Source: a virus
Direction: 5' to 3' (one strand)
Length of the DNA: 36,958 nt
IMG/VR virus record: IMGVR_UViG_3300037487_000889
Span: 1 to 36,958 of that record
Made by a program: the position numbers and the translations under genes
Notes under the pieces: model-generated
The model's input: the letters and a program-made list of their open reading frames with translations, nothing else
The model's database searches: none
What the model was told of the DNA's origin: nothing
Shown here: piece by piece, positions 1 to 27,790 of the stretch
Layout: the number at the start of each line of letters is the position of its first letter
How positions within the stretch are numbered: the first letter of the stretch is position 1

Positions 1-127
1 CTGCACTTCCTTGTGGAAGTGTTGTAGTAGTTCCAACTTGGATAGTAGCTGCCTGACCCGGTGTTCCGGGAGCTCCACCAATTCCATAGGGGGAACCGTA
101 AACTGTTACGTATATTAATTCGTCCAT
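1..127 (-). CDS. Collagen-like tail fibre protein, N-terminal part only (runs off the left edge)
   Basis: Only the first 42 codons are in the window. The N-terminus reads MDELIYVTVYGSPYGIGGAP, followed by Gly-X-Y-type residues and an ATIQVGTTTT segment, a pattern common near the start of phage tail-fibre and adhesin proteins with collagen-like linkers. The short VxVYxxPYG segment resembles VVLYTAPYG at the start of the neighbouring fibre (start at 3035), which suggests a shared docking peptide (inference). The ATG at 125-127 lies 10 nt after the stop of that fibre gene. There is no clear Shine-Dalgarno sequence, and a late-promoter motif sits only 7 nt upstream. Function is inferred from composition and neighbourhood; the receptor-binding part is outside the window. 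Confidence 0.75.
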   Translation of the reverse strand, partial: MDELIYVTVYGSPYGIGGAPGTPGQAATIQVGTTTTLPQGSA

Positions 128-134
128 TTTATAA

Positions 135-142
135 TATTTATA
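135..142 (-). promoter_or_regulatory. T4-type late promoter motif TATAAATA
   Basis: This is an exact match to the T4 late promoter core recognised by gp55-loaded RNA polymerase. It contains the TAA stop (138-140) of the upstream fibre gene and ends 7 nt before the ATG at 127. With T4 spacing the transcript would begin about 2 nt before the start codon. The motif is seen directly; promoter activity is inferred. Confidence 0.6.
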
Positions 143-3036: not shown

Positions 3037-3432
3037 TTAATTTTCTGTTACTTGCAATAGACTGTTGATGGATCCCCTCAAAAGTGTAACAATTCCACCG
3101 TTGTTTGGATACTGCATTTGAATATCATAGAACACGGGAACATAGTCTGGGAATTGGTTTGTATAGTTTGAGCCTATTGTCACATAAATTAAACCACCCG
3201 TGCCAGTAACGGCCAAACCACCTGTAACACCATCTGGCGGTGTAAACAGAGTACCAGCCGTGACTCCTTGAACGTATTTTACAATTTCGTTGCCCGGATA
3301 GTAAGATTTTCTTACTTCCATGGTCAATGTTACGCCAGTCAAATTATATGCACCGCCAGTAGGACCAGAAACTCCCATGGCCCATGTTACGGTGTCACCT
3401 TTTACTATAGTAGGATTATATGAGTCTGCCAT
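3037..3432 (-). CDS. Hypothetical virion-associated protein upstream of the fibre (131 aa)
   Basis: The product is not assigned to a named family. It starts MADSYNPTIVKGDTVTW and is rich in beta-prone, Gly/Thr/Val residues (YNLTGVTLTMEVRKSYY, GGLIYVTIGSNYTNQ). The layout resembles small immunoglobulin-like or BppU-N-like baseplate/fibre accessory domains, where a KGDT segment leads into an extended beta-sandwich. That resemblance is an impression from pattern and is unproven. The start is well supported: GGAG lies 5 nt before the ATG. It is the first gene after a late-promoter motif and directly precedes the large fibre, so a fibre-attachment or baseplate role is the best guess. Confidence 0.55.
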   Translation of the reverse strand: MADSYNPTIVKGDTVTWAMGVSGPTGGAYNLTGVTLTMEVRKSYYPGNEIVKYVQGVTAGTLFTPPDGVTGGLAVTGTGGLIYVTIGSNYTNQFPDYVPVFYDIQMQYPNNGGIVTLLRGSINSLLQVTEN

Positions 3433-3441
3433 CTGGTCTCC

Positions 3442-3474
3442 AAAAAATAATAGCCTTTATTAGAGGCTATTATT
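3442..3474 (-). terminator. Intrinsic terminator after the replication/GT2 unit (may double as a leader hairpin)
   Basis: A perfect 11-bp inverted repeat (AATAATAGCCT at 3446-3456, AGGCTATTATT at 3464-3474, 7-nt loop) is followed on the minus strand by a run of six T residues. It lies 23 nt beyond the stop of the GT2 gene, as expected for the end of the 45-44-62-regA-GT2 transcript. It also lies just downstream of a CTAAATA late motif, so late transcripts would begin inside or at the edge of the hairpin. Confidence 0.7.
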
Positions 3475-3477
3475 AAG

Positions 3478-3484
3478 TATTTAG
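3478..3484 (-). promoter_or_regulatory. Late promoter motif CTAAATA for the fibre module
   Basis: The motif CTAAATACTTAATAATAG resembles the T4 late consensus extended downstream (TATAAATACTATT). It is 45 nt upstream of the 131-residue ORF, whose own ribosome-binding site (GGAG) lies after the hairpin. The same CTAAATA core precedes the major capsid gene, which supports it as a local variant of the late motif. Confidence 0.55.
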
Positions 3485-3497
3485 GTCTTTTTAAAAA

Positions 3498-4715
3498 TTA
3501 AAGAGTTACTGCAATTTTTTTAGGATCTACGTCCAAAGTTGTCTTATTTGTATTTTTAGCAACCTTTTCAGCCCAATCCTTTTGTTGCTTTGCAACCTCG
3601 TCTTGGAACTTCTGGTATGCTTGCATGTAAATTTTGTAATTATTTTCAACTCTGGCTCTATGTTCTGGTGGAAGATGGGGCTCAGATAGAAGTTTTTGAC
3701 AAGCTCCCAATCCAACTTGCGGCCTTCCTGCATAGAATGCTGTTGTGCCAATTTCATCATAAATTCCCCAAAGATAATTTGCATTATCAACGAATAGAAT
3801 GTCATTCTGTGGGATTGGGATGCTTAACCCCAATGATGCTACTAGGAATGCATTTTTTGGTCTTTCATACTTTCTATAGATGCATGAAAGATGATAAAGA
3901 GGTTCTACTCGGTTCGGGGCAGTTTCAAATGCCATCATGAATGCATCAGCAATAAGTTCTACGGGCTTCCCCAAGAACTCTCTGCACATTCCTACGCGCA
4001 TCCACGAAAAGAATACCTCTTCATGCCAGCCACCCTGCTTAATCCTCTTCATGTACTCTTCTTCGGCAATGGCAAACATTCTCGCGTCGAATGCCGACTG
4101 TGCTGCATAGAATTGCTTGCGAGGCTGGTTTTGATCCTTGTCCAAGTAGCCCTTTAGGATATAATAATCCTTTGTATACTTTTCAATGTCATTTGACACG
4201 GATCTTGAACGACAACCCTCTGTACGAACTTCCCAAGCATAATCGCCCTCAAGCTTTTGCACATTCATCGGTTGTTCGCAAATTGCATATTCATGTAATG
4301 GCTCTTCATACCACCATTTTTTCTTTGCTAGATTGAACAATTGTGCTCGCAACCACTTGAACTCTCCACGCTTGATCTGTACAACATAACCATCAAGATT
4401 ATCATCAAACTTATCTACTGGAAGAATGCCTGTGATAAAATCGTCAGCATCAATCATCATCGCCCATTTGGTCTTACCTAAGCACAGTTCAAGAGCCTTG
4501 GAGCGATTGGTTCCGAAATCAGACCATTCATGGTCATGAATTTCTCCGGGAATACCCTTATCATCAAAAAACTTTTTGATAATTTCCTTGGTATTATCAG
4601 TCGATCCAGTATCACAGATCACATAATAATCAATAAATGGTGCGCATGAAGCCAAGCATCTTTCGATGTTTGGAGCCTCGTTTTTGACGATCATACTTAA
4701 AGTTAAATTGTACAT
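3498..4715 (-). CDS. GT2 family glycosyltransferase with C-terminal TPR-like helices
   Basis: The predicted enzyme is a cytoplasmic GT-A fold glycosyltransferase. LSMIVKNEAPNIERCL, CDTGSTDNT (residues 34-42) and the metal/nucleotide-sugar motif DADD (residues 89-92) are diagnostic of GT2. The second half (from about residue 170: YYILKGYLDKD, FDARMFAIAEEEYMKRI, PLYHLSCIYRKYERPKNAFL) is helical and reads like tetratricopeptide repeats, a known combination in bacterial and phage GT2 proteins. ATGs occur at 4721 and 4715. The second is chosen because AAGG is then spaced 6 nt upstream, whereas it abuts the first. The gene follows regA by only a few nucleotides and is followed by a terminator, so it looks like the last gene of the early replication unit. 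Acceptor unknown. Confidence 0.85.
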   Translation of the reverse strand: MYNLTLSMIVKNEAPNIERCLASCAPFIDYYVICDTGSTDNTKEIIKKFFDDKGIPGEIHDHEWSDFGTNRSKALELCLGKTKWAMMIDADDFITGILPVDKFDDNLDGYVVQIKRGEFKWLRAQLFNLAKKKWWYEEPLHEYAICEQPMNVQKLEGDYAWEVRTEGCRSRSVSNDIEKYTKDYYILKGYLDKDQNQPRKQFYAAQSAFDARMFAIAEEEYMKRIKQGGWHEEVFFSWMRVGMCREFLGKPVELIADAFMMAFETAPNRVEPLYHLSCIYRKYERPKNAFLVASLGLSIPIPQNDILFVDNANYLWGIYDEIGTTAFYAGRPQVGLGACQKLLSEPHLPPEHRARVENNYKIYMQAYQKFQDEVAKQQKDWAEKVAKNTNKTTLDVDPKKIAVTL

Positions 4716-4723
4716 TGTCATCC

Positions 4724-5149
4724 TTATGAATTAAAAAACTTACGAAGAGAACCGGGATTAAACTTTGGAATCAAATCCCAGTTATCCCGTTCATTATATT
4801 TAATGATTTTTAAACCAGATATGGGCATTTGGTTTACAATCTTTTGTTTGTCAACTATTTCCAGCAGTTCCCATTCTTCCAGCAACTTTATGATAGCATT
4901 TCTTCTTTTCAAATCTTCTTCAGAGACATTAGACGGAAGACCATCCAATGCAAAAAGTTCTTTAAAATGCGCTACAATATAAGTTTCATTTTTATGAATA
5001 AGATGGCAGGATTGATATAAAATATTTTTTCCTTTTGGAGAAACACCAATACGGCTAAGTGTTTCTCTTACCACCATAAAATCTTCTGGATCAAATAATT
5101 TTATATGAACGCCAATATTATTAAAAATTTTATCTGAAATTTCGGACAT
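4724..5149 (-). CDS. regA: RegA translational repressor
   Basis: RegA binds translation initiation regions of early phage mRNAs and represses their translation. Compared with T4 RegA from memory, the conserved blocks are clear: PEDFMVVRETLSRIG (residues 21-35, T4 PEDFLKVKETLTRMG), LYQSCHLIHKNETYIVAHFKE (44-64, T4 LYQSCHILQKKGLYYIVHFKE) and the C-terminal DNWDLIPKF (T4 HEWKLVPKY). It has 141 residues against 122 in T4, with an N-terminal extension of roughly 12 residues. It follows gene 62, as in T4. The start has a good GAGG 5 nt upstream. In T4 the next gene is DNA polymerase 43; here it is a glycosyltransferase. Confidence 0.95.
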   Translation of the reverse strand: MSEISDKIFNNIGVHIKLFDPEDFMVVRETLSRIGVSPKGKNILYQSCHLIHKNETYIVAHFKELFALDGLPSNVSEEDLKRRNAIIKLLEEWELLEIVDKQKIVNQMPISGLKIIKYNERDNWDLIPKFNPGSLRKFFNS

Positions 5150-5155
5150 ACTGCC

Positions 5156-5545
5156 TCACTCTTTATTATTAGTTCCACCCTTATATAAAGAAAGCTTTAA
5201 CTTTTCTATATCACTGGGTCCAAGTATATTTAGGACTTCTTGAGCCTTGGCATCTGTATATCCAAAAACCTCTTTGATTATGGCAATATTTTCCTCAGTA
5301 GACTTTTTTAACCAAGAAGAATAACGCTTCTTTTTTCTAATTGACATCCTGTAAAAATCAAACTGCATCTTTTTATCAGCCCACCAATGACAGTTGATTT
5401 CATTTGCATGCAATAAAGTATCAGGAAAAAATGAAAGGCATTTGTTTACAATAAATGGTGGATATGCTTTTTCTGCCTTTTCGTCTTGGTCCAACAAAGG
5501 CTTCTTATCGTAGTTAATGCTATTCAAAAAGTCTTTTAGTTCCAT
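5156..5545 (-). CDS. 62: Clamp loader small subunit (gp62-like, shortened)
   Basis: With gp44 this forms the complex that loads the gp45 sliding clamp at primer-template junctions. The central block, YPPFIVNKCLSFFPDTLLHA to MSIRKKKRYSSWLKK, matches the T4 gp62 pattern [21 protein letters not shown] to VPRGKRYGKWAKL. At 129 residues it is shorter than T4 gp62 (187). The order 45-44-62-regA is as in T4. The ATG overlaps the gene 44 stop by one base (TAATG), implying translational coupling that would help set subunit stoichiometry. Confidence 0.88.
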   Translation of the reverse strand: MELKDFLNSINYDKKPLLDQDEKAEKAYPPFIVNKCLSFFPDTLLHANEINCHWWADKKMQFDFYRMSIRKKKRYSSWLKKSTEENIAIIKEVFGYTDAKAQEVLNILGPSDIEKLKLSLYKGGTNNKE

Positions 5546-6486
5546 TAAGCAAACTCACAATCCATCATTAACTGCACAACCATAGCCATGCTATTAATCT
5601 CTTGATCTGCTGCAAATGAAGCCTTGTACTGGTATTCTGCAATGATTAAAATTGCTTGAGGAATTGAATTTGGTTTCAGTGCAGTATATAGCTCTGTGTA
5701 CAGACGTTTAAAAAACTCTGCTGTATTCAAATCAATATTTTGTACGATCCACTTTCGGCAGGAAGTAAAATCCTTTTGCTTCATAAAGCCAAGCAGTTCC
5801 TTATAAGATTCACTACTGCCCTGCGAAAGAATACCAACATCAATCTTACCACTTACAGAATACTTTTGCAGTTCATTGATAATTCTACGTATATCTGGAA
5901 AATGCTTCTTTACTAGGTTTACCAAAACACCTTTGTCATAAGAAACCTTTTCCTTTTCCAAAATCTGCTCAATACGCTTTAGAATCAACAAGGCAACTTG
6001 AGCCTTTTCTTGACTTGGCACCGTAAAATCAATGCCAGTGCATCTTGAGTGCAAAGGATCAATTACACGGCTTTTATAATTACATGTCAAGACAAATCTG
6101 CAACCATCTGCAAACTCCTCTATGGCTCCACGCAATCCAGTTTGAATTCCCTGAGTAGCATAATCAAACTCATCTAGGATAATTACCTTGCCATTACCAC
6201 TCAAAGACATGGTTGATGCATATTGGCGAATTTTAGTTCGCAATGTATCAATACCATTTTCCTCTGAGCAGTTTATGAGAATGGATTCCATTCCCAAATC
6301 ATTGGCTAGAGCCTTGGCAACTGTAGTCTTTCCAGTTCCAGCCTTTCCGTAAAACATCATGTTTGGCAGTTTTCTTTCCTTTACCATTCCATTAAAAATG
6401 GTAGAAAGATCAACTGGCAATATACAATCTGACATGGTTTTGGGACGATACTTTTCGACCCAAAGTAGATTAGTCACATCGGTCAC
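5545..6486 (-). CDS. 44: Clamp loader large subunit, AAA+ ATPase (gp44)
   Basis: This is the ATPase that opens and loads the gp45 clamp together with gp62. Visible motifs are LWVEKYRPKTMSDCILP near the N-terminus (T4 ILEQKYRPSTIDECILP), Walker A GKAGTGKTT (residues 47-55), Walker B VIILDEFD (101-108) and the SRC motif carrying the arginine finger (R148). Length is 313 residues against 319 in T4. The start codon is GTG at 6484-6486, preceded by GGGG about 6 nt upstream overlapping the end of gene 45. No in-frame ATG occurs before the conserved LWVEKYRP block, so GTG is needed. Confidence 0.96.
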   Translation of the reverse strand: MTDVTNLLWVEKYRPKTMSDCILPVDLSTIFNGMVKERKLPNMMFYGKAGTGKTTVAKALANDLGMESILINCSEENGIDTLRTKIRQYASTMSLSGNGKVIILDEFDYATQGIQTGLRGAIEEFADGCRFVLTCNYKSRVIDPLHSRCTGIDFTVPSQEKAQVALLILKRIEQILEKEKVSYDKGVLVNLVKKHFPDIRRIINELQKYSVSGKIDVGILSQGSSESYKELLGFMKQKDFTSCRKWIVQNIDLNTAEFFKRLYTELYTALKPNSIPQAILIIAEYQYKASFAADQEINSMAMVVQLMMDCEFA

Positions 6487-6488
6487 GA

Positions 6489-7160
6489 TTAACCCCGCTT
6501 AATTGCAATATAGTATGAAAGATTCTGGCTTTGATGAGTAAATCTAGAAATAATGTTTTTAGTTAGTTCAACCTTGTAAGATCCCGGCAAAAACTTGATT
6601 TCCGAGACATTAAACGTTCCTTCGTAATCAGGTCCATCATAGTTCTCATCAATCAAAACAGAGAAACTGTTAGAAGTATCGTTTTTTGCATCATCAACAG
6701 TAATCTTAAGAACACCGTTTTCTCCAACAATCTTAAGATCACTGACCTGAAGAATACTAGATGCCTTTAGAATCTCATTTAGATTGTGCTCATCCAAATC
6801 AAAACTAATAATGATCTCTGGCATTTCCAGTTCTCTAGTTGGAACAGTCAAAAGAGATGGTTCAGAGTAGTAATATCTAACTGAGGACTTTCCATTTGAA
6901 ATGTCCACATGGGTATCACAAAACTCCAAATCGGGATTGGGGAACATGCTTACCACACCCAAAAACTTATTCAAGTCCCAAATTGGAACATCCGTGTCAA
7001 ACTCTTCTTGGATTGTTGCTTCAACATATATATTCTTTCCACCAGAAATAGTCCGGAGATTGTTTCCCGGCTTGATCAAGATGTTTGAATTGATGGAAGA
7101 AAAGTTCTTTAAAATTGCGAGTGTTTCTTTTGATAGTCTCATTTTAGTCACAGTTGTCAT
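6489..7160 (-). CDS. 45: DNA polymerase sliding clamp (gp45)
   Basis: This is the processivity clamp for the phage DNA polymerase. In T4 it is also the mobile coactivator that activates late transcription through gp55/gp33. MRLSKETLAILKNFSSINSNILIKPGN, DVPIWDLNKFLGVVSMF and the FDLDEHNLNEILKASSILQV segment match the layout of T4-type clamps, and the length (223 residues) is close to T4 (228). The start has a strong AAAGGA Shine-Dalgarno sequence. A second ATG six codons downstream (MRLSKE) is possible but lacks one. It is followed closely by gene 44. Confidence 0.95.
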   Translation of the reverse strand: MTTVTKMRLSKETLAILKNFSSINSNILIKPGNNLRTISGGKNIYVEATIQEEFDTDVPIWDLNKFLGVVSMFPNPDLEFCDTHVDISNGKSSVRYYYSEPSLLTVPTRELEMPEIIISFDLDEHNLNEILKASSILQVSDLKIVGENGVLKITVDDAKNDTSNSFSVLIDENYDGPDYEGTFNVSEIKFLPGSYKVELTKNIISRFTHQSQNLSYYIAIKRG

Positions 7161-7177
7161 ATATTTCCTTTTGTAAA

Positions 7178-7336
7178 TTATTCTTCGTCTTTATTTTTAC
7201 GATACATCATATCCTGAACTTGCTGCTTATGTTCGTGTCTAGATCCGCGTTTGTTTCTCACCTGTTGTTTTTTGCTAAATCCAGATGGCTTATTCTTGCG
7301 ACGATTAGTAAACTTTTCAAAGCTTTCTTCGTTCAT
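7178..7336 (-). CDS. Small basic protein (52 aa) at the rpbA/45.x position
   Basis: I found this ORF by reading the minus strand between gene 45 and the 94-residue ORF. It begins MNEESFEKFTNRRKNKPSGF and ends MMYRKNKDEE. It is strongly basic and polar, with many Lys, Arg and Gln, and lacks hydrophobic stretches. In T4 the corresponding slot between 46 and 45 holds 45.2 and rpbA, the latter encoding an RNA-polymerase-binding protein of 129 residues. This ORF is too short to be a full RpbA, and no family is assigned. Support comes from a well-formed sigma70-like promoter ending 9 nt before the ATG and from tight spacing to gene 45. It may bind nucleic acid (inference from charge only). Confidence 0.6.
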   Translation of the reverse strand: MNEESFEKFTNRRKNKPSGFSKKQQVRNKRGSRHEHKQQVQDMMYRKNKDEE

Positions 7337-7345
7337 GACTCTTCA

Positions 7346-7373
7346 ATTATAACTCCATTAAAACAGAAATCAA
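7346..7373 (-). promoter_or_regulatory. Sigma70-like promoter for the 45-44-62-regA unit
   Basis: The -35 TTGATT (complement of 7368-7373), a 16-bp spacer and the -10 TATAAT (complement of 7346-7351) are visible. The expected start of transcription is 2-4 nt before the ATG of the 52-residue ORF, so the leader would be extremely short. The -35 overlaps the stop codon region of the 94-residue ORF. Confidence 0.65.
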
Positions 7374-7654
7374 GTTGCAATCCACTGAGAACCATTTATG
7401 TCGGTAAACCACACATATGAAATACCATCTGATGAAGTCCACACTTGTCCTTCTTTTGGATTGATTGGTGGATTTTCAGAAATAGTGTTTTCGGTAATCC
7501 CAACAAAAAACCAATTTTTTGGTGTTTGGATTGGGCTTTTCTCAGTTTGTTGAGAACATTGATATAATTTTCCCTGATGTGTAACTACATCACCCTTTAT
7601 ATAGTTAAAGGGTTTTCCGTTGACATCCTTAGTTTGAAATTTTCCTCTAAACAT
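7370..7654 (-). CDS. Fibre-like small protein with carbohydrate-binding-type pattern (94 aa)
   Basis: Residues 17-52 (NYIKGDVVTHQGKLYQC, then NWFFVG) follow the pattern of small carbohydrate-binding modules of the chitin-binding CBM5/12 type (W/Y..G..V.Y.G..Y.A...W). The C-terminal half (PPINPKEGQVWTSSDG, then YVWFTD and QWI) matches a short domain frequently seen at the ends of phage fibre and neck proteins. Neither assignment is verified. It sits inside the early recombination/replication region, yet it is preceded by a CTAAATA late motif and has no Shine-Dalgarno sequence. That suggests a late virion protein embedded in an early operon. The ATG lies 10 nt after the gene 46 stop. Confidence 0.65.
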   Translation of the reverse strand: MFRGKFQTKDVNGKPFNYIKGDVVTHQGKLYQCSQQTEKSPIQTPKNWFFVGITENTISENPPINPKEGQVWTSSDGISYVWFTDINGSQWIAT

Positions 7655-7661
7655 TTAAAAA

Positions 7662-7668
7662 TATTTAG
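7662..7668 (-). promoter_or_regulatory. Late promoter motif CTAAATA overlapping the gene 46 stop codon
   Basis: CTAAATATT on the minus strand contains the TAA stop of gene 46 (7665-7667) and ends 7 nt before the ATG of the 94-residue ORF. This spacing equals that of the TATAAATA motif before the fibre at position 127. Promoter activity is inferred from the recurring pattern. Confidence 0.5.
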
Positions 7669-9386
7669 ACTTGAACTTTCATCTTTGAAAAATTATTTTT
7701 CTTTTCAAAATGCATCTGCTGGTCAAATTTATCTATTAGCTGATCTGCCTTGTGGCTAATGATGTATATAGAACACTTATTCTTCATTTTATTTAGAAGC
7801 TTCAAGAATGATTCAGTTCCGGCAGAATCCAACGATGAATCCAAGATCTCGTCAAAGATCAATAGATTGCAGTTAAGGCTGTTTTTCATCTTGGCTACTT
7901 CTCGCCAAGTCAGCAATATGGCCAGATCGATACGCTGCTTTTCTCCCTCAGAGAAAGAGGAATATGAGAATTCATCTCTATATCTTGATTTAATTGTTTC
8001 TTTAAATTCTTCGTTGATGTTAAAGTCAACATAGAGATTAAGTTTTGAGAGGAACTTATTGACGAGTCCATTGATGATGGGAACATAATGCTTAATAATG
8101 CGGCTCTTGAGGCCACCATCTTTGAGTATATCGTAAACCACATCGTGATGAATTTGTTCATTAATTAAATTCTGCACTTTCTTTGATAATTCATCTTTTT
8201 CAGATTCAGACTTTTGTAGACTTTCTTCTAATGAAGAAATGTTGCTAGATGCTTGCTTTTCTTTCTTTTCTTTTTGCAAACGCTTTACGTTTTCTTCCCC
8301 ATTGCCAATTCTATAATCAATTCCCATGATATCATCACGAATGCTATCCATGGTAACGTTAAAAGATTTAAAATCCTCTTGGGCATTATAAAGTTTTTGA
8401 TTCTTTTCTTTTGCAATCTTTATTGCTTTTTGGCATTCTAAAAGTTTTATCTCTTTATCAGAGATATGTTTTTCTTTTTGATCTATGGGTAGATTTTGAC
8501 CACAGCAACTGCATATAGCAGATGTTTTTAAAGATTGAATCTCTTCTTTCAATGTAGATTCAAGAACCTCTGCCTTGGTTAGCATTACTGGAACATCTTT
8601 TAAAGAATCTATGATTTTCTTTTGTTTTTTTACTTCTTCGTTTACTTTTTCAAGTTGCTTTGTATGCTCGGCTCGTTCAGATTTACTGAGTTTGATGTTT
8701 TGCTCAAAAGATTCAATTTTTTCATCAATTGCCTTTATGTCATCGGCATTGTGATTCTTTACCTGTTGAATAAAACTTTTTTGTGCTTTGATCTTTTCAT
8801 GTGCAATTTTAAGAAATGATTCTTTTTCTACAATATCCACCTTTAATGAACCCAACTGTCCTTTGACATATTGATTCATGTCTGCCAATACATCAAGATC
8901 CAACAAGCCTTCAATAATTTTTCTTCTTTCGGCAGGGGTTAACTGCATGAAAGGTATAAAATTTGATTTACCGAGAATTACTACTTGTTTAAATGCGGCA
9001 TAATCAAATCCCAAGATTTGTTCTTCAAACATTTCTTGGTAGTCTTTTGACTTTGCATTTTGGTCAATCATCTCCCCGTCTTTGTAAATTTCAAAAAACT
9101 TCGGACTCAACCCCCGTTTTACTGTGTATAAAACATTAGATCTTTTAAATTCTATTTCCACTACACAGTGTTTGGCATTTACGCTATTGACTAATTGGGG
9201 AATGTTAATTGGTCTAAACGGTTTACCGAATAAACCAAAGCAAAGGGAATCCAAAAGAGCAAAGGACTTGCCATGACCATTGGTTCCTGTTACGAGAGTA
9301 ATTTTGTTGGTATTTAATTTTATTTCAGTAAAATTTGTACCAAACGAACCAAAGTTTTTAAACTTGACAGAGATAAATTCTATCAT
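7665..9386 (-). CDS. 46: Recombination endonuclease subunit, SbcC/Rad50-like ATPase (gp46)
   Basis: With gp47 this forms the Mre11/Rad50-type complex that resects DNA ends for recombination-dependent replication. Motifs in order are Walker A GTNGHGKS (residues 34-41), long coiled-coil arms flanking a zinc hook with CSCC (C292-C295), the ABC signature SFSEGEKQR (477-485), Walker B NLLIFDE (507-513) and a D-loop SSLD. Length is 573 residues against 560 in T4. It overlaps the gene 47 stop (ATGA), indicating coupling, and is part of the 55-47-46 unit. Confidence 0.97.
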   Translation of the reverse strand: MIEFISVKFKNFGSFGTNFTEIKLNTNKITLVTGTNGHGKSFALLDSLCFGLFGKPFRPINIPQLVNSVNAKHCVVEIEFKRSNVLYTVKRGLSPKFFEIYKDGEMIDQNAKSKDYQEMFEEQILGFDYAAFKQVVILGKSNFIPFMQLTPAERRKIIEGLLDLDVLADMNQYVKGQLGSLKVDIVEKESFLKIAHEKIKAQKSFIQQVKNHNADDIKAIDEKIESFEQNIKLSKSERAEHTKQLEKVNEEVKKQKKIIDSLKDVPVMLTKAEVLESTLKEEIQSLKTSAICSCCGQNLPIDQKEKHISDKEIKLLECQKAIKIAKEKNQKLYNAQEDFKSFNVTMDSIRDDIMGIDYRIGNGEENVKRLQKEKKEKQASSNISSLEESLQKSESEKDELSKKVQNLINEQIHHDVVYDILKDGGLKSRIIKHYVPIINGLVNKFLSKLNLYVDFNINEEFKETIKSRYRDEFSYSSFSEGEKQRIDLAILLTWREVAKMKNSLNCNLLIFDEILDSSLDSAGTESFLKLLNKMKNKCSIYIISHKADQLIDKFDQQMHFEKKNNFSKMKVQV

Positions 9387-10429
9387 TCTTCTTCCTTAGA
9401 CAGTGCGCTATTATACGCTGCATTTATGATAGAAGCAAGTGTGGTTTTGTCGATGGATTTGTCGGTAACCGTTTCTATCTCTTCATGCAGCAACTGTAAA
9501 GTGTCTTTATGAATGTCTACTGCAACAAGTTCCGGATTTGATGACACCTCTTCCGAAACAACCAATTCAGCAACACCCACTTCATAAAATTTATCAATGT
9601 ATTTTTCAAATATGGGTTGCTTGGTTTTGCTTTTTATGAATACCTTTACGTGCTTATCTTTAAATTGTTCGTAATCTAATTTTTCCGTAGATTCTTCATA
9701 ATAGTCAAGCGTATAGAATAGGCGTTCTGTATTCTGTACAAATTCAAGAGTGCGGTTCTGGAAATCAAAGACATGGAAGCCCTTTTCTTCCCAAACATCC
9801 GAAAAAGCCATTTGGTATTGCGTTCCGAGATAATGAATGCTATCCCTACTAGACTTAATATGATAATGCCCAGTAAGAACAAATTCAAACTTGTTGAAGT
9901 GCTTAGAGTCATATCCTTGCTCCACGGAGACACCACGAATGCTTTGAAATCCACATAACTCCAAATGACCAAGCAAAACAGTACAAGTCGTGTTTTGAAG
10001 GAATTCAGCAGCTGCTGATTCATTTTCTGGGTTAACCCAAGGTAGCAACGCGACACATCCTGTTGTAAGTTGGATTTCAGTTGGTTCAGAGTAAACTGAC
10101 CAATTTGGATAGTGTGTAACAAGTTCATTAAGAGAATTTACCTTATTAGTATTCTTGTAATAAGTGTCATGGTTTCCACAAATTATTATACACTTAATTC
10201 CCATTTCCATCAAGGGATTTAAAAATCTTTCCTGAACTTGATTTAATGTTTTAAAATTGATATATTTGCGCCTATCAAATAAGTCGCCCAGATGGAATAT
10301 GGTTTTAATATTGTTTTCCTTTAGATAAGGAAACAATTGTTTTTCAAAAAAAGATAGAAAGTATTCAAGCATAATGGGTGAATCATTCTTGTACCCAAAA
10401 TGCGTGTCATTTAAAATTACTGCTTTCAT
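9383..10429 (-). CDS. 47: Recombination endonuclease subunit, SbcD/Mre11-like nuclease (gp47)
   Basis: This is the calcineurin-like phosphoesterase partner of gp46. The metal-binding motifs are intact: NDTH (D8, H10), LGDLFDRR (D49), CGNHD (N86, H87), the later LLGHLE and LTGHYH. Length is 348 residues, close to T4 gp47 (339). Both the start and the end of the gene overlap neighbours by four bases (ATGA with gene 55 upstream and gene 46 downstream), so the three genes appear to be one translationally coupled unit. Confidence 0.97.
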   Translation of the reverse strand: MKAVILNDTHFGYKNDSPIMLEYFLSFFEKQLFPYLKENNIKTIFHLGDLFDRRKYINFKTLNQVQERFLNPLMEMGIKCIIICGNHDTYYKNTNKVNSLNELVTHYPNWSVYSEPTEIQLTTGCVALLPWVNPENESAAAEFLQNTTCTVLLGHLELCGFQSIRGVSVEQGYDSKHFNKFEFVLTGHYHIKSSRDSIHYLGTQYQMAFSDVWEEKGFHVFDFQNRTLEFVQNTERLFYTLDYYEESTEKLDYEQFKDKHVKVFIKSKTKQPIFEKYIDKFYEVGVAELVVSEEVSSNPELVAVDIHKDTLQLLHEEIETVTDKSIDKTTLASIINAAYNSALSKEEE

Positions 10430-10992
10430 ATATCAAATGCGTCTTTTTTGACTTTCTTTTTTCTTTTGGTTTTCTTTGGAGCACACATATCTTCAAACCG
10501 CTCCATGTCAAGATCTGTTAGACCAAAAAAGTCTCTACGACCAACATCTATTCCTGCGTAGGTTTCATTAAACCAGTTATGGAAGTCTTTGTTGTTTTGT
10601 TGCTCTGCAAACTTGTACTGAACAAATTTTTCTTTCTTTTCCTTGTTTATGATACGAACAAAAGAAAACCAGCATATTTGGGTTAAATAACCAAATGGGC
10701 TGGTTGAAAGCTTTGGATCAAAATTGTCAATATAAGTTATGCAGTTTAAAACTCCATCAGAAACCATTTCTTCTCTATATGGATAGTTTGCAAAATTTGG
10801 TCTGTATGAAAGTCTAGTTGCTATCTTTAGAATGCATTCACCTATGTAATCTGGTAGTTTTGGTTTTTTTCTACCAGCATCTTCAGCTTCTTTGCATTTC
10901 TTTTTATATTCAACCAAAGCTTCATATAGAGCTTGATTATTCACATAATCAGCATCTGATGGTTTGGATTTCTTTTTCTTTGGTTTTTTCAC
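10426..10992 (-). CDS. 55: Late-transcription sigma factor (gp55)
   Basis: gp55 is the minimal sigma factor that lets host RNA polymerase read TATAAATA-type late promoters. The block DYVNNQALYEALVEYK, RPNFANYPYREEMVSDG, FDPKLSTSPFGYLTQICW and FVRIINKEKKEK aligns with T4 gp55 ([56 protein letters not shown]). It has 188 residues against 185 in T4, with Lys-rich N- and C-terminal tails. The start is GTG at 10990-10992. An in-frame stop lies only 12 nt upstream and no ATG precedes the conserved region, so GTG is the only plausible common start. It has no visible Shine-Dalgarno sequence and sits 6 nt after a -10 element. Its predicted targets are the late motifs listed here. Confidence 0.93.
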   Translation of the reverse strand: MKKPKKKKSKPSDADYVNNQALYEALVEYKKKCKEAEDAGRKKPKLPDYIGECILKIATRLSYRPNFANYPYREEMVSDGVLNCITYIDNFDPKLSTSPFGYLTQICWFSFVRIINKEKKEKFVQYKFAEQQNNKDFHNWFNETYAGIDVGRRDFFGLTDLDMERFEDMCAPKKTKRKKKVKKDAFDI

Positions 10993-10998
10993 AGTGGT

Positions 10999-11026
10999 AT
11001 TATATCATTTATTTTTTAAAAAGCAA
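10999..11026 (-). promoter_or_regulatory. Sigma70-like promoter for the 55-47-46 unit
   Basis: The -35 TTGCTT (complement of 11021-11026), a 16-bp spacer and a perfect -10 TATAAT (complement of 10999-11004) are visible. The -35 overlaps the end of the dehydratase gene. The -10 ends 6 nt before the GTG start, which predicts a leaderless or nearly leaderless gene 55 mRNA. Confidence 0.6.
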
Positions 11027-11996
11027 ATTTATTTAATTTATTTAACCAATATGAAACCATCTCTTCCATCATAGAATCAAATGAAATCTTGGGTTGCCAT
11101 TTTAACTCTGTTTTTGCTTTACTTGAATCACCAAGCAAATAATGAAGTTCTTCTGGTCTCATATATTTTTTATCTGTTTCTAGATATTTTTTATAATCTA
11201 AATCCAAATAAGTAAATACTTTTTCTACCATGTTTAATACCGTTCTTGTTTGGCCAGTAGCTAGCACATATGTTTCTGGCTTTTCTTTTTGCAACATCAA
11301 CCACATACCCTCAACATAATCTTTTGCGTGGCCCCAATCTCTTTTTGCTTCTAAATTTCCAAGCACCAACCTATCAGATAACCCTAATTTTATTTTTGCT
11401 GCTTCTAAAGCAACTTTATTTGTTACAAAGTTTATACCTCTTCTTGGTGATTCATGATTAAATAAAATTCCAGAACAAGCAAAAATACCATAAGATTCTG
11501 AATAATTTCTACACAATGTGTGTGCATATAATTTTGCGCAACCATATGGACTTACTGGTATCATTGGAGTTGTTTCTCTTTGATACCCATCAGAATCTTT
11601 TGAGTTACCAAACATTTCAGAAGTTCCAGCGTGATATATCTTGCTATGTGGTGAAAAACGTCTAACTGCTTCTAATACCGTTAGAGTTCCATTTCCATTT
11701 ACTTCCAACGTATAATGAGGCAAATCAAATGAAATTTGCACATGTGATTGCGCAGCTAAATGGTATATTTCATCTGGGTTACTTTTTTGTATGACACTTT
11801 GTATGCTTAGTGGATCTGTTAAATCTGCATAACACATTTCTATATCATTTTTAATATGATCTATTCTTGTCGTTTGAGATTCGGGAACAGAATTTCTTCT
11901 TATTGTACCGTAAATTTTATAATTTTTATTTAATAAAAATTCTGCAAGATATGATGCATCCTGTCCATTTGCACCGATTATTAAAGCTTTTTTCAT
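11016..11996 (-). CDS. gmd: GDP-mannose 4,6-dehydratase
   Basis: The enzyme converts GDP-mannose to GDP-4-keto-6-deoxy-mannose, the precursor of GDP-fucose, GDP-rhamnose and related sugars. Visible features are the Rossmann motif GANGQDAS (residues 8-15, family GxTGQDGS), AAQSHVQISFDLP, the catalytic set T125/E127 in AGTSEMFG with Y151 and K155 (PYGCAKLYAHT), and the family signature FNHESPRRGINFVT. These are specific for Gmd rather than generic epimerases. At 326 residues it is at the short end for the family. It is the last gene of the cassette, its start overlaps the preceding stop (ATGA), and it abuts the gene 55 promoter. A GT11 fucosyltransferase in the same cassette would use a product of this pathway. 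Confidence 0.94.
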   Translation of the reverse strand: MKKALIIGANGQDASYLAEFLLNKNYKIYGTIRRNSVPESQTTRIDHIKNDIEMCYADLTDPLSIQSVIQKSNPDEIYHLAAQSHVQISFDLPHYTLEVNGNGTLTVLEAVRRFSPHSKIYHAGTSEMFGNSKDSDGYQRETTPMIPVSPYGCAKLYAHTLCRNYSESYGIFACSGILFNHESPRRGINFVTNKVALEAAKIKLGLSDRLVLGNLEAKRDWGHAKDYVEGMWLMLQKEKPETYVLATGQTRTVLNMVEKVFTYLDLDYKKYLETDKKYMRPEELHYLLGDSSKAKTELKWQPKISFDSMMEEMVSYWLNKLNKFAF

Positions 11997-23062: not shown

Positions 23063-23500
23063 ATGAATCTAGAGAACCTTAAAGAACTTATTACTAAAGA
23101 CTCTCAAATAGACTCTACTGAGTTAGGTATAGAGTCTCTTAAGATACCTCAAATACACGGAAAGTATCTTAATATTTTGACAGATCTTAAACTACTTTTG
23201 GCAAAACAACAAAATGACTTTGCCATCCATAAACTCCGTAGGTGGAAAATTTACACTGGAAAAGCTTCACAAGAAGAATTAGAAGAATGGAAAGAAGAAC
23301 CATTTGATCTAGGAATTCTTAAAACCGATGTTGATAAATTTATGGATGCAGATCCAAAACTTATTGAGTTAAAATCAAAAATTGTTCTCAATGAAGTAAA
23401 AGTAAAAATGGTAGAAGAATTTTTAAAAGCACTTAATAATAGAAATTTTACCATCAAGTCTGCTATTGATTGGCAAAAAATGATGAATGGCATCGTATAA
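23063..23500 (+). CDS. uvsY: UvsY recombination mediator
   Basis: UvsY loads the UvsX recombinase on gp32-coated single-stranded DNA during recombination-dependent replication. The N-terminus MNLENLKELITKDSQIDSTE corresponds to T4 MRLEDLQEELKKDVFIDSTK. HGKYLNILTDLKLLLAKQQNDF, then KLRRWKIYTGKAS, aligns with T4 YSKWLNKHSSIKKEM, then KARLDYYSGRGD. Length is 145 residues against 137 in T4. The ATG has only a weak ribosome-binding site. It is directly followed by uvsW, the same pair as in T4 though in the opposite relative order. Confidence 0.9.
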   Translation: MNLENLKELITKDSQIDSTELGIESLKIPQIHGKYLNILTDLKLLLAKQQNDFAIHKLRRWKIYTGKASQEELEEWKEEPFDLGILKTDVDKFMDADPKLIELKSKIVLNEVKVKMVEEFLKALNNRNFTIKSAIDWQKMMNGIV

Positions 23501-23503
23501 ATA
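23496..23503 (+). promoter_or_regulatory. Late promoter motif TATAAATA overlapping the uvsY stop codon
   Basis: This exact T4 late core contains the uvsY TAA stop (23498-23500) and ends 4 nt before the uvsW GTG. In T4 uvsW is a late gene, which makes a late promoter here credible. However, a transcript with T4 spacing would start at about the start codon itself. Confidence 0.5.
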
Positions 23504-23507
23504 TTGA

Positions 23508-25004
23508 GTGGATATAGATGTTGAATCTATTGATGAAGTAAGATACTATGTAAAGACAGAAAAGGGATTAAAACAAGAACTGAGAGATTACTTCTCATTC
23601 ATGGTCCCCGGAGCCCAATATATGCCTATGTTCAAGCGTAGGCTATGGGACGGAAAAATTCGTCTATACGATATACTTTCATCAACACTTCCAAGAGGTC
23701 TTAAGACATATCTTGAAAAGTTTTCCACAGATCGTGGCTACACCCTAAACATAAAAGAAACCAAAAATCCTTTATGCATCACGGACAAACAACTTCAGGT
23801 TTTTTACGAATCCTTGAAGGTTTCGGTTCGCAAACAGGCAGTGCAGATGCACGACCACCAAAAACAGGGTATCTTGCATGCATTGAACAATCATCGTTCG
23901 GTGCTAATATCACCAACTGGCTCCGGAAAAAGTCTTATTATATACGTCTTGGTTCGGTATCTGCAAAAGGTTATACCTACAGATCGCAAAATTTTAATTT
24001 TGGTTCCAACGGTCGGTCTAGTAAATCAAATGGAGTCTGACTTTTTTGATTACTCTGGACAAGACAAATCTTGGTCATGCAAAAAATACATACACAAGAT
24101 TACTGCTGGAGTTGAAAAAGAAACTAAACAACAGATAGTAGTTTCTACATGGCAATCAATTTACAAATTGCCAAAGCAATGGTTTGATCAATTTGATGCA
24201 GTATTCTTTGATGAATGTCATCAAGCAAAAGCCGAATCAATAAATTTTATTGGACAAAAGCTTTCAAAGGCTTGGTTTAGAATCGGCACAACGGGGACAT
24301 TACAACAAACACAAGCGCATAGATTGAGCATTGAGGGTATACTCGGTCCAGCTGTACAATTTATACACACAAAAAACCTAATGAATAAAGGTTTATTGGC
24401 AAAACTTGGTATAGATTGTTTAATTCTTAAATATAGTGACGAAGAAAAACAATTGTTGAAAAAACAAAAGTATGTTGATGAAATAAAATGGATCGTCACA
24501 AATGAAAAACGAAACGAATTCATCAAACAACTCGCGCTTCGAACCAAAGGGAATACCCTTATCCTCTTTAATTACGTCGAAACACATGGAAAACCGCTCG
24601 CAGCTCTCTTGGAAGCAGCGGGAACGGATAGAAAAATTTATCTTATACATGGAAAGACAGAAGCGGATGCAAGAGAAAATATCAGAAGAATCATTGACAA
24701 AGAAAAAGATGCAATCCTTGTTGCGTCCTTTGGTACTACTTCTGCTGGTATCAATATCGTCAATCTTGATAATATCATATTTGCTTCTCCTACTAAATCG
24801 GTAATAAGATTATTGCAAAGCATTGGTCGTGGTTTGCGAGTTTCTGAAAGAAAAAAGACATTAAAGGTTTATGATATTGTAGATGATCTTTCTTGGAAAT
24901 CTCATAAGAACCATGTATTAAAACACTTTGAAGAACGATTGAAAATATACAAGAAAGAAAAATTTGATTTTAAAATATGTTCAATGAGTTTTAACGACCT
25001 TTGA
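23508..25004 (+). CDS. uvsW: UvsW DNA/RNA helicase
   Basis: This superfamily 2 helicase unwinds R-loops and regresses forks, shutting off origin-dependent replication in favour of recombination-dependent replication. The N-terminal KQELRDYFSFMVPGA to RLWDGKIRLYD matches T4 (HELRDFFSFEADGY to GNWDGRIRLLD). Motifs are a Q-like HDHQKQGI (residues 115-122), Walker A SPTGSGKS (135-142), Walker B DECH (235-238), GTTGTL (260-265) and motif VI QSIGRGLR (437-444). Length is 498 residues against 503 in T4. The start is GTG, with no visible Shine-Dalgarno sequence. It is supported by N-terminal similarity (MDIDVESIDEVR against T4 MDIKVHFHDFSHVR). Confidence 0.95.
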   Translation: MDIDVESIDEVRYYVKTEKGLKQELRDYFSFMVPGAQYMPMFKRRLWDGKIRLYDILSSTLPRGLKTYLEKFSTDRGYTLNIKETKNPLCITDKQLQVFYESLKVSVRKQAVQMHDHQKQGILHALNNHRSVLISPTGSGKSLIIYVLVRYLQKVIPTDRKILILVPTVGLVNQMESDFFDYSGQDKSWSCKKYIHKITAGVEKETKQQIVVSTWQSIYKLPKQWFDQFDAVFFDECHQAKAESINFIGQKLSKAWFRIGTTGTLQQTQAHRLSIEGILGPAVQFIHTKNLMNKGLLAKLGIDCLILKYSDEEKQLLKKQKYVDEIKWIVTNEKRNEFIKQLALRTKGNTLILFNYVETHGKPLAALLEAAGTDRKIYLIHGKTEADARENIRRIIDKEKDAILVASFGTTSAGINIVNLDNIIFASPTKSVIRLLQSIGRGLRVSERKKTLKVYDIVDDLSWKSHKNHVLKHFEERLKIYKKEKFDFKICSMSFNDL

Positions 25005-25035: not shown

Positions 25036-25698
25036 ATGTCCGACACACTTCCTGAGAATGAATTCTCGGGCGCATTGCGAATTGTAAAGCTTACCTCCGG
25101 AGAAGAATTAATTGGAATGGTAAGCGAATCTGCGCCAGATAAAATAAACATAAAACTACCAGCTCTTTTAGAAAATTACTATACAAGAGGGCAAAAAAAT
25201 GAAATGGTAGAATATGTAAAACTTACAAATTATTTGTTAAATGTCAAAGGTTATGAAGTTAATCTTCCAAGATCTGTAATTGTTTATATTGGTATCCCGG
25301 CCACGGAATTGGAGAAAATGTACGAAGTATATTTTATGGCTATGCAATCCGATTCAAAAACAATTATAAGTTCTGGACCAGAAGATGAAATTGGTTCTGA
25401 AAATGGTTTGCAACTTTTGAATGATTTATTCAATAATCCAGATTTTGTAAATTTTGTAAATGATCTTATTGACAATTTTGAAGGTGTAGAAATATTAGAT
25501 GATTCTGATGATGAAGAGTGGGACGATATAGTTGCAGAATCGCCTATAAGCCCTCCGGAGGAAAAACCGTCCGAAGATGCTCCTAAGAAGAAGAAACGCA
25601 AGGCGATGAAGCCTGAAACGAATAAGCTACCTTATAAACCGGAAGCCAACCCAAATACTCCAGAGGGTTGGTCAGACAATCCACTAGACTACATTTAA
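25036..25698 (+). CDS. Sm-like-fold phage protein with acidic and basic C-terminal tail (220 aa)
   Basis: Residues 13-43 (ALRIVKLTSGEELIGMVSES, then INIKLPALLE) follow the Sm1 pattern of Sm/LSm/Hfq proteins, where a strand and the G-E-E-L-I-G turn lead to further strands. NLPRSVIVYIGIPA (residues 76-89) could be the Sm2-like strand pair. After a helical region comes an acidic stretch (residues 151-164, ILDDSDDEEWDD) and a basic cluster KKKKRK (184-189). Nothing more specific is recognised. The gene has a late-type promoter and a strong ribosome-binding site. It converges on the tube-like gene, the two stop codons overlapping. It may bind RNA or be a virion or assembly factor. Confidence 0.7.
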   Translation: MSDTLPENEFSGALRIVKLTSGEELIGMVSESAPDKINIKLPALLENYYTRGQKNEMVEYVKLTNYLLNVKGYEVNLPRSVIVYIGIPATELEKMYEVYFMAMQSDSKTIISSGPEDEIGSENGLQLLNDLFNNPDFVNFVNDLIDNFEGVEILDDSDDEEWDDIVAESPISPPEEKPSEDAPKKKKRKAMKPETNKLPYKPEANPNTPEGWSDNPLDYI

Positions 25699-26237
25699 AC
25701 TTGATTTTTTAAATTTGATGGAACTGGATCTTGTTGGTCACCGGTCCAAAGATCAAAATATGAATATTTAAATGTGCAATTTGTTTTTTGAATTATTGCA
25801 TCAGCACTATCTGCTTGAAACTGCATGCCATTTAATTTTACTGGAATAATATAATTAAATTTTGCTCTTAAAATTTCACAGTTTGTTGTAGGATCATATA
25901 AAAACAAATTTGCTTCATGGTGCCAAGATTGATACAGAGCATTGTGTTCCGTATCATTTTTGATATTTGTAATATTGCGAATCCAAGAATAAATGCTCAT
26001 CCAGTTTGTCAAATCCGAATCAACAATAAATTCAACATTTAAAGTTTCAAAATTTGCTACCATAGTTGGTACTGGGATTGTTGTACCGAGTGTTGTTGGT
26101 TGTGGTTGATCTGGAACAGAAATACCCGGAAGATTTGCTCTTTGACACATAAGTTCCATCTGTTTGGTCCCACGACCAAATACCAGACGAAAATAACTGT
26201 TATACATCGGGTTAGTGTTTGATGAACATAAACTCAT
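25695..26237 (-). CDS. Tail-tube-fold virion protein (gp19-like family, 180 aa)
   Basis: YNSYFRLVFGRGTKQMELMCQRANLPGISV and then VANFETLNVEFIVDSDLTNWMSIYSWI (each read in parts) resemble T4-type tube-fold proteins, in which a strand-loop region (RANLPG) is followed by a FIVDxxLxNWxxIxxW segment. This form is seen in T4-like environmental phages as a structural protein near gene 23. It differs from the two adjacent gp19 copies at 32428-33495, so it may be a tail-terminator or baseplate-tube protein (gp3-, gp48- or gp54-like) rather than the main tube. The ATG lies 5 nt after a CATAAATA motif and has no Shine-Dalgarno sequence. Confidence 0.7.
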   Translation of the reverse strand: MSLCSSNTNPMYNSYFRLVFGRGTKQMELMCQRANLPGISVPDQPQPTTLGTTIPVPTMVANFETLNVEFIVDSDLTNWMSIYSWIRNITNIKNDTEHNALYQSWHHEANLFLYDPTTNCEILRAKFNYIIPVKLNGMQFQADSADAIIQKTNCTFKYSYFDLWTGDQQDPVPSNLKNQV

Positions 26238-26242
26238 AGAAA

Positions 26243-26250
26243 TATTTATG
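26243..26250 (-). promoter_or_regulatory. Late promoter motif CATAAATA
   Basis: This relaxed late core (NATAAATA) lies between the T-tract of the gene 23 terminator and the tube-like gene, ending 5 nt before its ATG. With T4 spacing, transcription would begin at the A of the start codon. Confidence 0.5.
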
Positions 26251-27770: not shown

Positions 27771-27777
27771 TATTTAG
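27771..27777 (-). promoter_or_regulatory. Late promoter motif CTAAATA for gene 23
   Basis: CTAAATAATTTTAC shares the 13-mer TAAATAATTTTAC with the gene 22 promoter. Both motifs end exactly 27 nt before their start codons. The predicted leader of about 22 nt carries GGAG. This is the best-supported example of the CTAAATA variant. Confidence 0.75.
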
Positions 27778-27790
27778 TAAAAATTGTTTT

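Follow-up and report, generated by a model that had tools for sequence, protein, structure and literature searches.

A small fibre-type gene at the gp46-gp45 junction of T4-like phages and a candidate class of leaderless late genes

ORF94, a 94-aa reading frame lodged between gp46 and the gp45 unit of a T4-like phage, is probably a small tail-fibre or baseplate part of the virion, used in assembly, expressed late from a leaderless or near-leaderless mRNA, and translated from a start codon devoid of a Shine-Dalgarno (SD) sequence. The window analysed, a stretch of 36,958 nt, is a metagenomic contig of such a phage. With slightly less assurance, we favour the notion that a T4-like lineage of phages of aquatic bacteria, HTVC008M included, has a large share of its late genes leaderless, ORF94 being nearly silent early and switched on late. 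In the mechanism proposed, the RNA polymerase carrying gp55 would transcribe ORF94 late from an octamer overlapping the gp46 stop codon, a promoter so placed that transcription would start on or next to the AUG, 0-4 nt before the ATG of ORF94 (2 nt in the window). Ribosomes would start at the 5' AUG of the resulting leaderless or near-leaderless mRNA with no help from an SD. In early read-through mRNA the same SD-less start would be used poorly, and the late promoter, by turning the start codon into an mRNA 5' end, would switch the gene on. The two modules of the protein, one with a CBM5/12 fold and one of fibre type, would serve protein-protein assembly rather than chitin binding. The elements of the locus are the following.

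6489..7160, minus strand: gp45, sliding clamp (phrog_223, E 1.1e-69)
7178..7336, minus strand: orf52, conserved small basic ORF of 52 aa, between ORF94 and gp45
7346..7373, minus strand: TTGATT-16-TATAAT, putative early promoter of sigma70 type driving orf52 and the 45 unit
7370..7654, minus strand: ORF94, two-module fibre-type small protein (ORF, homologues, Pfam, dN/dS)
7373..7486, minus strand: fibre module, codons 57-94, PPxxPxxGQxWxSxxGxxYxWxxDxxxxQW, recurring in large phage ORFs
7490..7654, minus strand: CBM5/12-fold module, codons 1-55 (AlphaFold2 model, structural alignment)
7655..7656, minus strand: predicted 2-nt leader, +1 at about 7656 (from the T4 -13 to -6 rule)
7662..7669, minus strand: octamer TCTAAATA, putative late promoter; it overlaps the stop codon of gp46 (7665-7667) and is conserved in 40/40 and 13/13 loci
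7665..9386, minus strand: gp46, SbcC-like (phrog_77, E 5.4e-144)
10426..10992, minus strand: gp55, late sigma factor (phrog_234, E 4e-52)

Along the minus strand genes are arranged in the order gp55, gp47, gp46, ORF94, orf52, gp45, gp44, gp62, regA and a glycosyltransferase gene, followed by tail genes. The 94-aa ORF described in an earlier note on this DNA is found, with the peptide patterns quoted there, at 7370-7654 of this strand, between gp46 and orf52-gp45. ORF94 occupies the gp46-orf52 junction in 34 of 51 gp45-bearing loci from IMG/VR, and orf52 accompanies gp45 in all 51 (in L043 it is split into two pieces). Pfam and PHROG hold no match to orf52, which also shows no similarity to T4 gp45.2 (E 2.5). 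Pairwise comparison of 18 ORF94 sequences yielded dN/dS values of up to 0.55 (median 0.29) in the 98 of 153 pairs with usable synonymous divergence, which speaks for purifying selection. Being kept at its site in many loci, and given this median value, ORF94 is evidently a real gene. A profile search identified ORF94 homologues in 13 of 13 records, the window included, and in four of these (G005, G007, G008 and G009) a homologue lies away from the gp46-gp45 junction. Matches obtained by searching cultured phages with the whole protein (tblastn) were partial, none covering 80%. Visual inspection spoke against a start codon further downstream, the initial MF(R/K)G being kept in most members; L029 and L046 differ at this point. 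In L043 small shifts within 3504-3980 break both the ORF94 start (by 1 nt) and orf52, probably because of an assembly error, and the locus was retained in the counts despite these defects.

The CTAAATA heptamer that had been noticed in front of ORF94 is present at 7662-7668, minus strand. Such heptamers are not enriched in the window (8 found versus 10.2 expected by chance), and the one at ORF94 is significant because of its position and conservation, not of the count. The octamer [T/G][A/C]TAAATA is found at the gp46 stop in all 40 distinct loci in which ORF94 adjoins gp46, which are to be regarded as one orthologous site, not as 40 independent cases. The distance from octamer to ATG is 7 nt in 25 loci, 6 in eight, 5 in three, 9 in two and 8 in one, and thus falls between 5 and 9 nt in 39 of the 40; in the last, a frameshifted ORF94 copy, it is 12 nt. 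None of the 40 carries GGAG, GAGG or AGGA at -16 to -4 of ORF94. In L032 an AGGA abuts the ATG, too close to count as an SD.

Passages of PMC1524935 place the T4 late octamer, TATAAATA, at -13 to -6, and give CTAAATA as the Aeh1 version. By this rule, the spacing observed in 39 of 40 loci predicts an ORF94 leader of 0-4 nt, 2 nt in the window. The sequence features of a T4-type late promoter (gp55/gp33/gp45) are found here: the octamer lies upstream of ORF94, and both gp55 and gp45 are encoded in the window. In T4, gp45 is an activator of late transcription. The same octamer precedes known late genes of the window, gp18, gp22 and gp23, and is followed there, as in T4, by a leader and an SD. 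Unlike these T4-type cases, ORF94 and 53 genes of three relatives have the motif 4-8 nt before the start, nearly always with no SD. Examples of the two arrangements in the window are the following.

25695-26237, minus strand: tail-tube-like gene, 180 aa (phrog_45, E 3e-28)
26243..26250, minus strand: leaderless-type late octamer CATAAATA, 5 nt before the tail-tube-like gene
27771..27778, minus strand: classical late octamer ACTAAATA, 27 nt before gp23, with SD

The octamer is kept, as read by eye, also in 13 of 13 loci which have gp46 and lack ORF94 at this place. Hence it is not strictly a property of ORF94, and may serve orf52 and gp45 too. The suggestion in the earlier note that ORF94 has its own late promoter, uncoupling it from the early operon, therefore needs to be amended: comparative evidence supports a late promoter setting ORF94 apart, and the word "own" is only partly right. 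One may go further, and suppose that late transcription from the octamer serves orf52-gp45-gp44-gp62-regA, ensuring clamp supply, and that ORF94 is a passenger inserted behind it. We regard this as possible, though improbable. It would account for the 13 ORF94-less loci, in which the octamer lies upstream of the conserved early promoter. It does not fit with L074 and L077, in which ORF94 has a different N-terminus and the octamer is found 5 nt from the new ATG, nor with homologues which moved elsewhere. Thirteen rows were not next to gp46; L087 and L088 were dropped, being fibre proteins with modules and not ORF94 orthologues, leaving 11 full-length homologues placed away from gp46. Five of these (L083, L084, L085, L086 and L141) keep an octamer of their own 6-8 nt before the ATG. 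The other six (L070, L079, L080, L089, L140 and L142) reside in gene runs headed by an octamer, located 12-29 nt before an upstream gene. Against a background in which a late motif is found within 40 nt of 115 of 554 genes (at 4-9 nt for 57 of 554), the five copies are informative and the six are weak evidence. The relocated copies do not prove a role in the virion, as no PHROG matches their neighbours (about 320, 430 and 1000 aa). When neighbours were scanned against PHROG and Pfam, hardly anything emerged beyond RCC1 repeats, phrog_527 and related, and a virion structural PHROG in L059. No late motif is found at the gp46 end of T4, Syn9, S-SKS1 and HTVC008M, the latter differing in this from the window.

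The preferred reading, in which ORF94 is a late virion component, draws on the composition of the protein. The N-terminal module scores just above the cut-off of Pfam CBM_5_12 (26.9 versus 26.2 bits, over 20 residues), and 20 of 22 members match this family at E 0.1. The AlphaFold2 model of ORF94 is mostly beta (pLDDT 84.8, pTM 0.54). According to VIA-align, residues 1-55 superpose on chitinase C with a Z of 7.4 (rmsd 1.4 over 46 residues), a value below 8 that is modest and may reflect a common small fold. Residues 137-184 of the cyanophage A-1(L) tail fibre 8kec_a match with Z 7.0 (rmsd 1.1 over 45 residues), and further structural matches are the phage Milano baseplate 8fqc (Z 4.9), the phage 7-7-1 tail fibre 9rkv (Z 4.5) and the baseplate of the Anabaena contractile injection system 7b5h (Z 4.3). 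Foldseek retrieved no match to ORF94 from the PDB at E 0.001 or better, and 19 at this threshold among predicted viral proteins, many in long phage proteins. The CBM5/12 resemblance anticipated in the earlier note is thus borne out at the level of the predicted fold, and extends to the core aromatic residues shared with 2RTS, 1WVV and 1ED7, Y18 and W48 being kept in 22 of 22 members.

The same cannot be said of carbohydrate binding. Passages of PMC8449059 report that CBM5 domains bind chitin via a consecutive aromatic pair, and that they have two core aromatics in common. Aligned through 2RTS, the chitin-binding pair falls on positions 35-36 of ORF94, where 0 of 22 members have an aromatic residue; at position 46, the counterpart of a third surface aromatic, 2 of 22 have one. 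The missing pair sets ORF94 apart from known CBM5/12 domains, and solved structures of fibres and baseplates contain similar domains. Moreover, as stated in a section of PMC10966104, a carbohydrate-binding module in the neck fibre of phage A-1(L) showed no host binding. Judged from its residues, sugar binding by ORF94 is unsupported. A glycan-binding tip is a possible role, and the fold and the Pfam match are in line with it; the initial proposal of a virion-displayed, glycan-binding adhesin of CBM5/12 type nonetheless looks doubtful in the light of the positions above. From its 279 residues, chain a of 8kec is presumably A-1(L) gp33, the joint domain of which (Leu111-Gln215) binds baseplate wedges, again according to part of PMC10966104. 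If so, residues 137-184 would lie in the baseplate-binding joint domain. The A-1(L) fibre is trimeric and has a stem, whereas ORF94 is stemless.

The fibre-like nature attributed to ORF94 from the start finds its support in the C-terminal module. The module resides within frames of 650-742 aa in six of the 13 searched records. In the profile search, in which the best 80 of 211 relatives were kept, it was found in 43 distant loci, always inside ORFs of 193-1603 aa, five of which end at a contig or locus edge. Ten of 10 large module proteins scanned match tail or tail-fibre PHROGs, seven of them also outside the module. Both modules are in tandem, as in ORF94, in L088, L090, L095 and L097, again among the best 80 of 211. 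The L059 counterpart at this gp46 site has the module pair fused to collagen-type repeats, and it is mainly through these repeats that L059 matches tail-fibre PHROGs. Taken alone, ORF94 of the window matches phrog_3304 weakly (E 0.023); among members the best match to fibre PHROGs is 3.1e-4, and 15 of 22 match at E 0.1. The last 38 residues of ORF94 are akin to the tail-fibre module of PHROGs 3304 and 9729. In contrast to the proteins hosting the latter (193-1603 aa among the best 80 of 211), ORF94 is free-standing, 94 aa long, and module for half of its length. ORF94 is likely a small fibre or baseplate part, and may be either of the two things put forward in the earlier note, a decoration protein or a fibre tip.

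Immediately after ORF94 comes the element that would drive the 45 unit early. The -35 box of the orf52 promoter overlaps the ORF94 stop codon, and TTGnnn-16/17-TATAAT, or a near form of it, is conserved in 46 of 49 distinct loci, compared with a mean of 0.9 and a maximum of 4 in mononucleotide shuffles. Within 3300-11100 of the window sigma70-like matches are no commoner than in shuffles (32 versus 28.2), so that the promoter call rests on conservation. We infer that the conserved element is the early promoter of the 45 unit, and that ORF94 is a late cassette set between two early units, flanked by a late and an early promoter. In the 46 loci the -10 of this early-type element (7346-7336, minus strand) ends 6-9 nt before the orf52 ATG, and the early orf52 mRNA may therefore be leaderless too. 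In L016 and L041 the interval from gp46 to orf52, or the place just before orf52, is taken by other large genes, one of those in L016 being rich in collagen-type repeats, and orf52 still retains the early-type promoter. The junction of gp46 and gp45 apparently accepts other genes. L041 and L059 are one contig.

It could be argued that ORF94 is itself early, and translated by coupling to gp46: the gp46 stop is tightly spaced to the ORF94 ATG, and the scan of the minus strand lists no terminator between the two genes. This strikes us as unlikely. SD-like words are missing upstream of ORF94 in 40 of 40 loci, the 45 unit has an early-type promoter of its own after ORF94, the five relocated homologues keep the late octamer away from gp46, and the C-terminal module is one of fibres.

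Whether late transcripts start as close to the gene in other members of the lineage was judged from the spacing between [AC]TAAATA and the next ATG, surveyed in the window, in the large relatives G001-G003, and in cultured T4, Syn9, S-SKS1 and HTVC008M. A simple ORF caller was used, taking the nearest in-frame ATG, a bias shared by controls and reference phages. Late motifs peak about 5 nt before the ATG in G001-G003 and in the Pelagibacter phage HTVC008M, also T4-like. Genes at 4-8 nt number 19 in G001, 16 in G002, 18 in G003 and 11 in HTVC008M (10 at exactly 5 nt); the window has three, one of which is the GTG of uvsW. T4, Syn9 and S-SKS1 differ in having none, and their peak falls within 19-33 nt. 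With 14 permuted hexamers the 4-8 nt bin averaged 0.2-2.1 genes, and never exceeded 7. That the peak is a by-product of TAA stops lying near the next ATG is highly improbable, for although the octamer does overlap the TAA stop of gp46, the permuted hexamers, TAATAA included, give no peak, and neither do T4, Syn9 and S-SKS1 at 4-8 nt. Thirteen ATGs of HTVC008M follow the motif at 5 nt, and 12 of them are annotated as CDS starts. Among these genes at least six are structural or act on DNA ends, and examples are those for head completion, tail completion, baseplate wedge, tape measure and DNA end protector proteins. HTVC008M is not among the best 60 of 84 records matched by the ORF94 search.

Genes with the motif at 4-9 nt have few SD-like words (window 0/3, G001 1/20, G002 0/16, G003 1/18, HTVC008M 1/11). 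The corresponding figures are 4/4, 8/8, 10/12, 14/19 and 6/6 for genes with the motif at 14-33 nt, and 14/35, 43/137, 58/144, 44/138 and 88/168 for all other genes. For the 14-33 nt class of reference phages they are 20/21 in T4 and 7/20 in Syn9. As late genes with leaders often lack an SD-like word in Syn9 too, SD absence proves nothing by itself. The pattern [AC]TAAATA-5-ATG is carried by 15 of 15 further records with ORF94 homologues (94 occurrences, versus 12 for the reversed control), and has 0 occurrences in three phage contigs sharing only the fibre module. Pattern and reversed control score 4 and 0 in T4, 2 and 2 in both S-SKS1 and Syn9, 2 and 1 in S-PM2, 1 and 1 in Aeh1, 3 and 0 in S-CRM01; none of the cases in T4, Syn9 and S-SKS1 was counted as a gene start in the spacing survey. 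By the T4 rule, a 5-nt spacing sets +1 on the A of the ATG. The simplest reading of the 4-8 nt class is that it corresponds to leaderless late mRNAs, that of ORF94 among them.

The novelty plausibly resides in this leaderless geometry, which would be common to many genes of the phage lineage of ORF94. If so, many late genes of this T4-like group are read with neither leader nor SD, unlike those of T4, and a simple rule holds for late promoters of the group, to be sought about 5 nt before the ATG. The switch would be a clean one: a start codon that works badly within an early transcript would work well once it stands at the end of a late transcript. Small unannotated ORFs like ORF94 could then be assigned by sequence alone to the late, probably virion, class. 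Among the matches listed in the literature search, the coverage of which left out subscription journals and preprints, no title points to late genes of T4-like phages being leaderless. In passages of PMC9004378 and PMC7892664, the term leaderless is mentioned only in a gene-finder reference, and a remark in PMC5312081 has it that phage transcripts are often leaderless. According to a passage of PMC7029224, attempts to predict late promoters in pelagimyophage genomes did not succeed.

A few other sites of the window deserve mention. On the minus strand, at 3430-3485, a hairpin resembling a terminator, T run included, comes immediately after the late octamer CCTAAATA, and an SD and a 131-aa gene come next; the hairpin was seen by eye and is absent from the output of the promoter/terminator scan. 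Here a putative late promoter would stand just before an early terminator, and G001 and G002 have a similar order. At 127-142, minus strand, TATAAATA lies 7 nt before an ATG at 127, which opens an ORF running off the left end of the window. This truncated frame appears to be another leaderless-type late gene. On the plus strand, at 23496-23521, TATAAATA directly precedes the start of uvsW, with a GTG 4 nt away and an ATG further on, and sites like this one are found in G002 and G003 before a gene of similar size.
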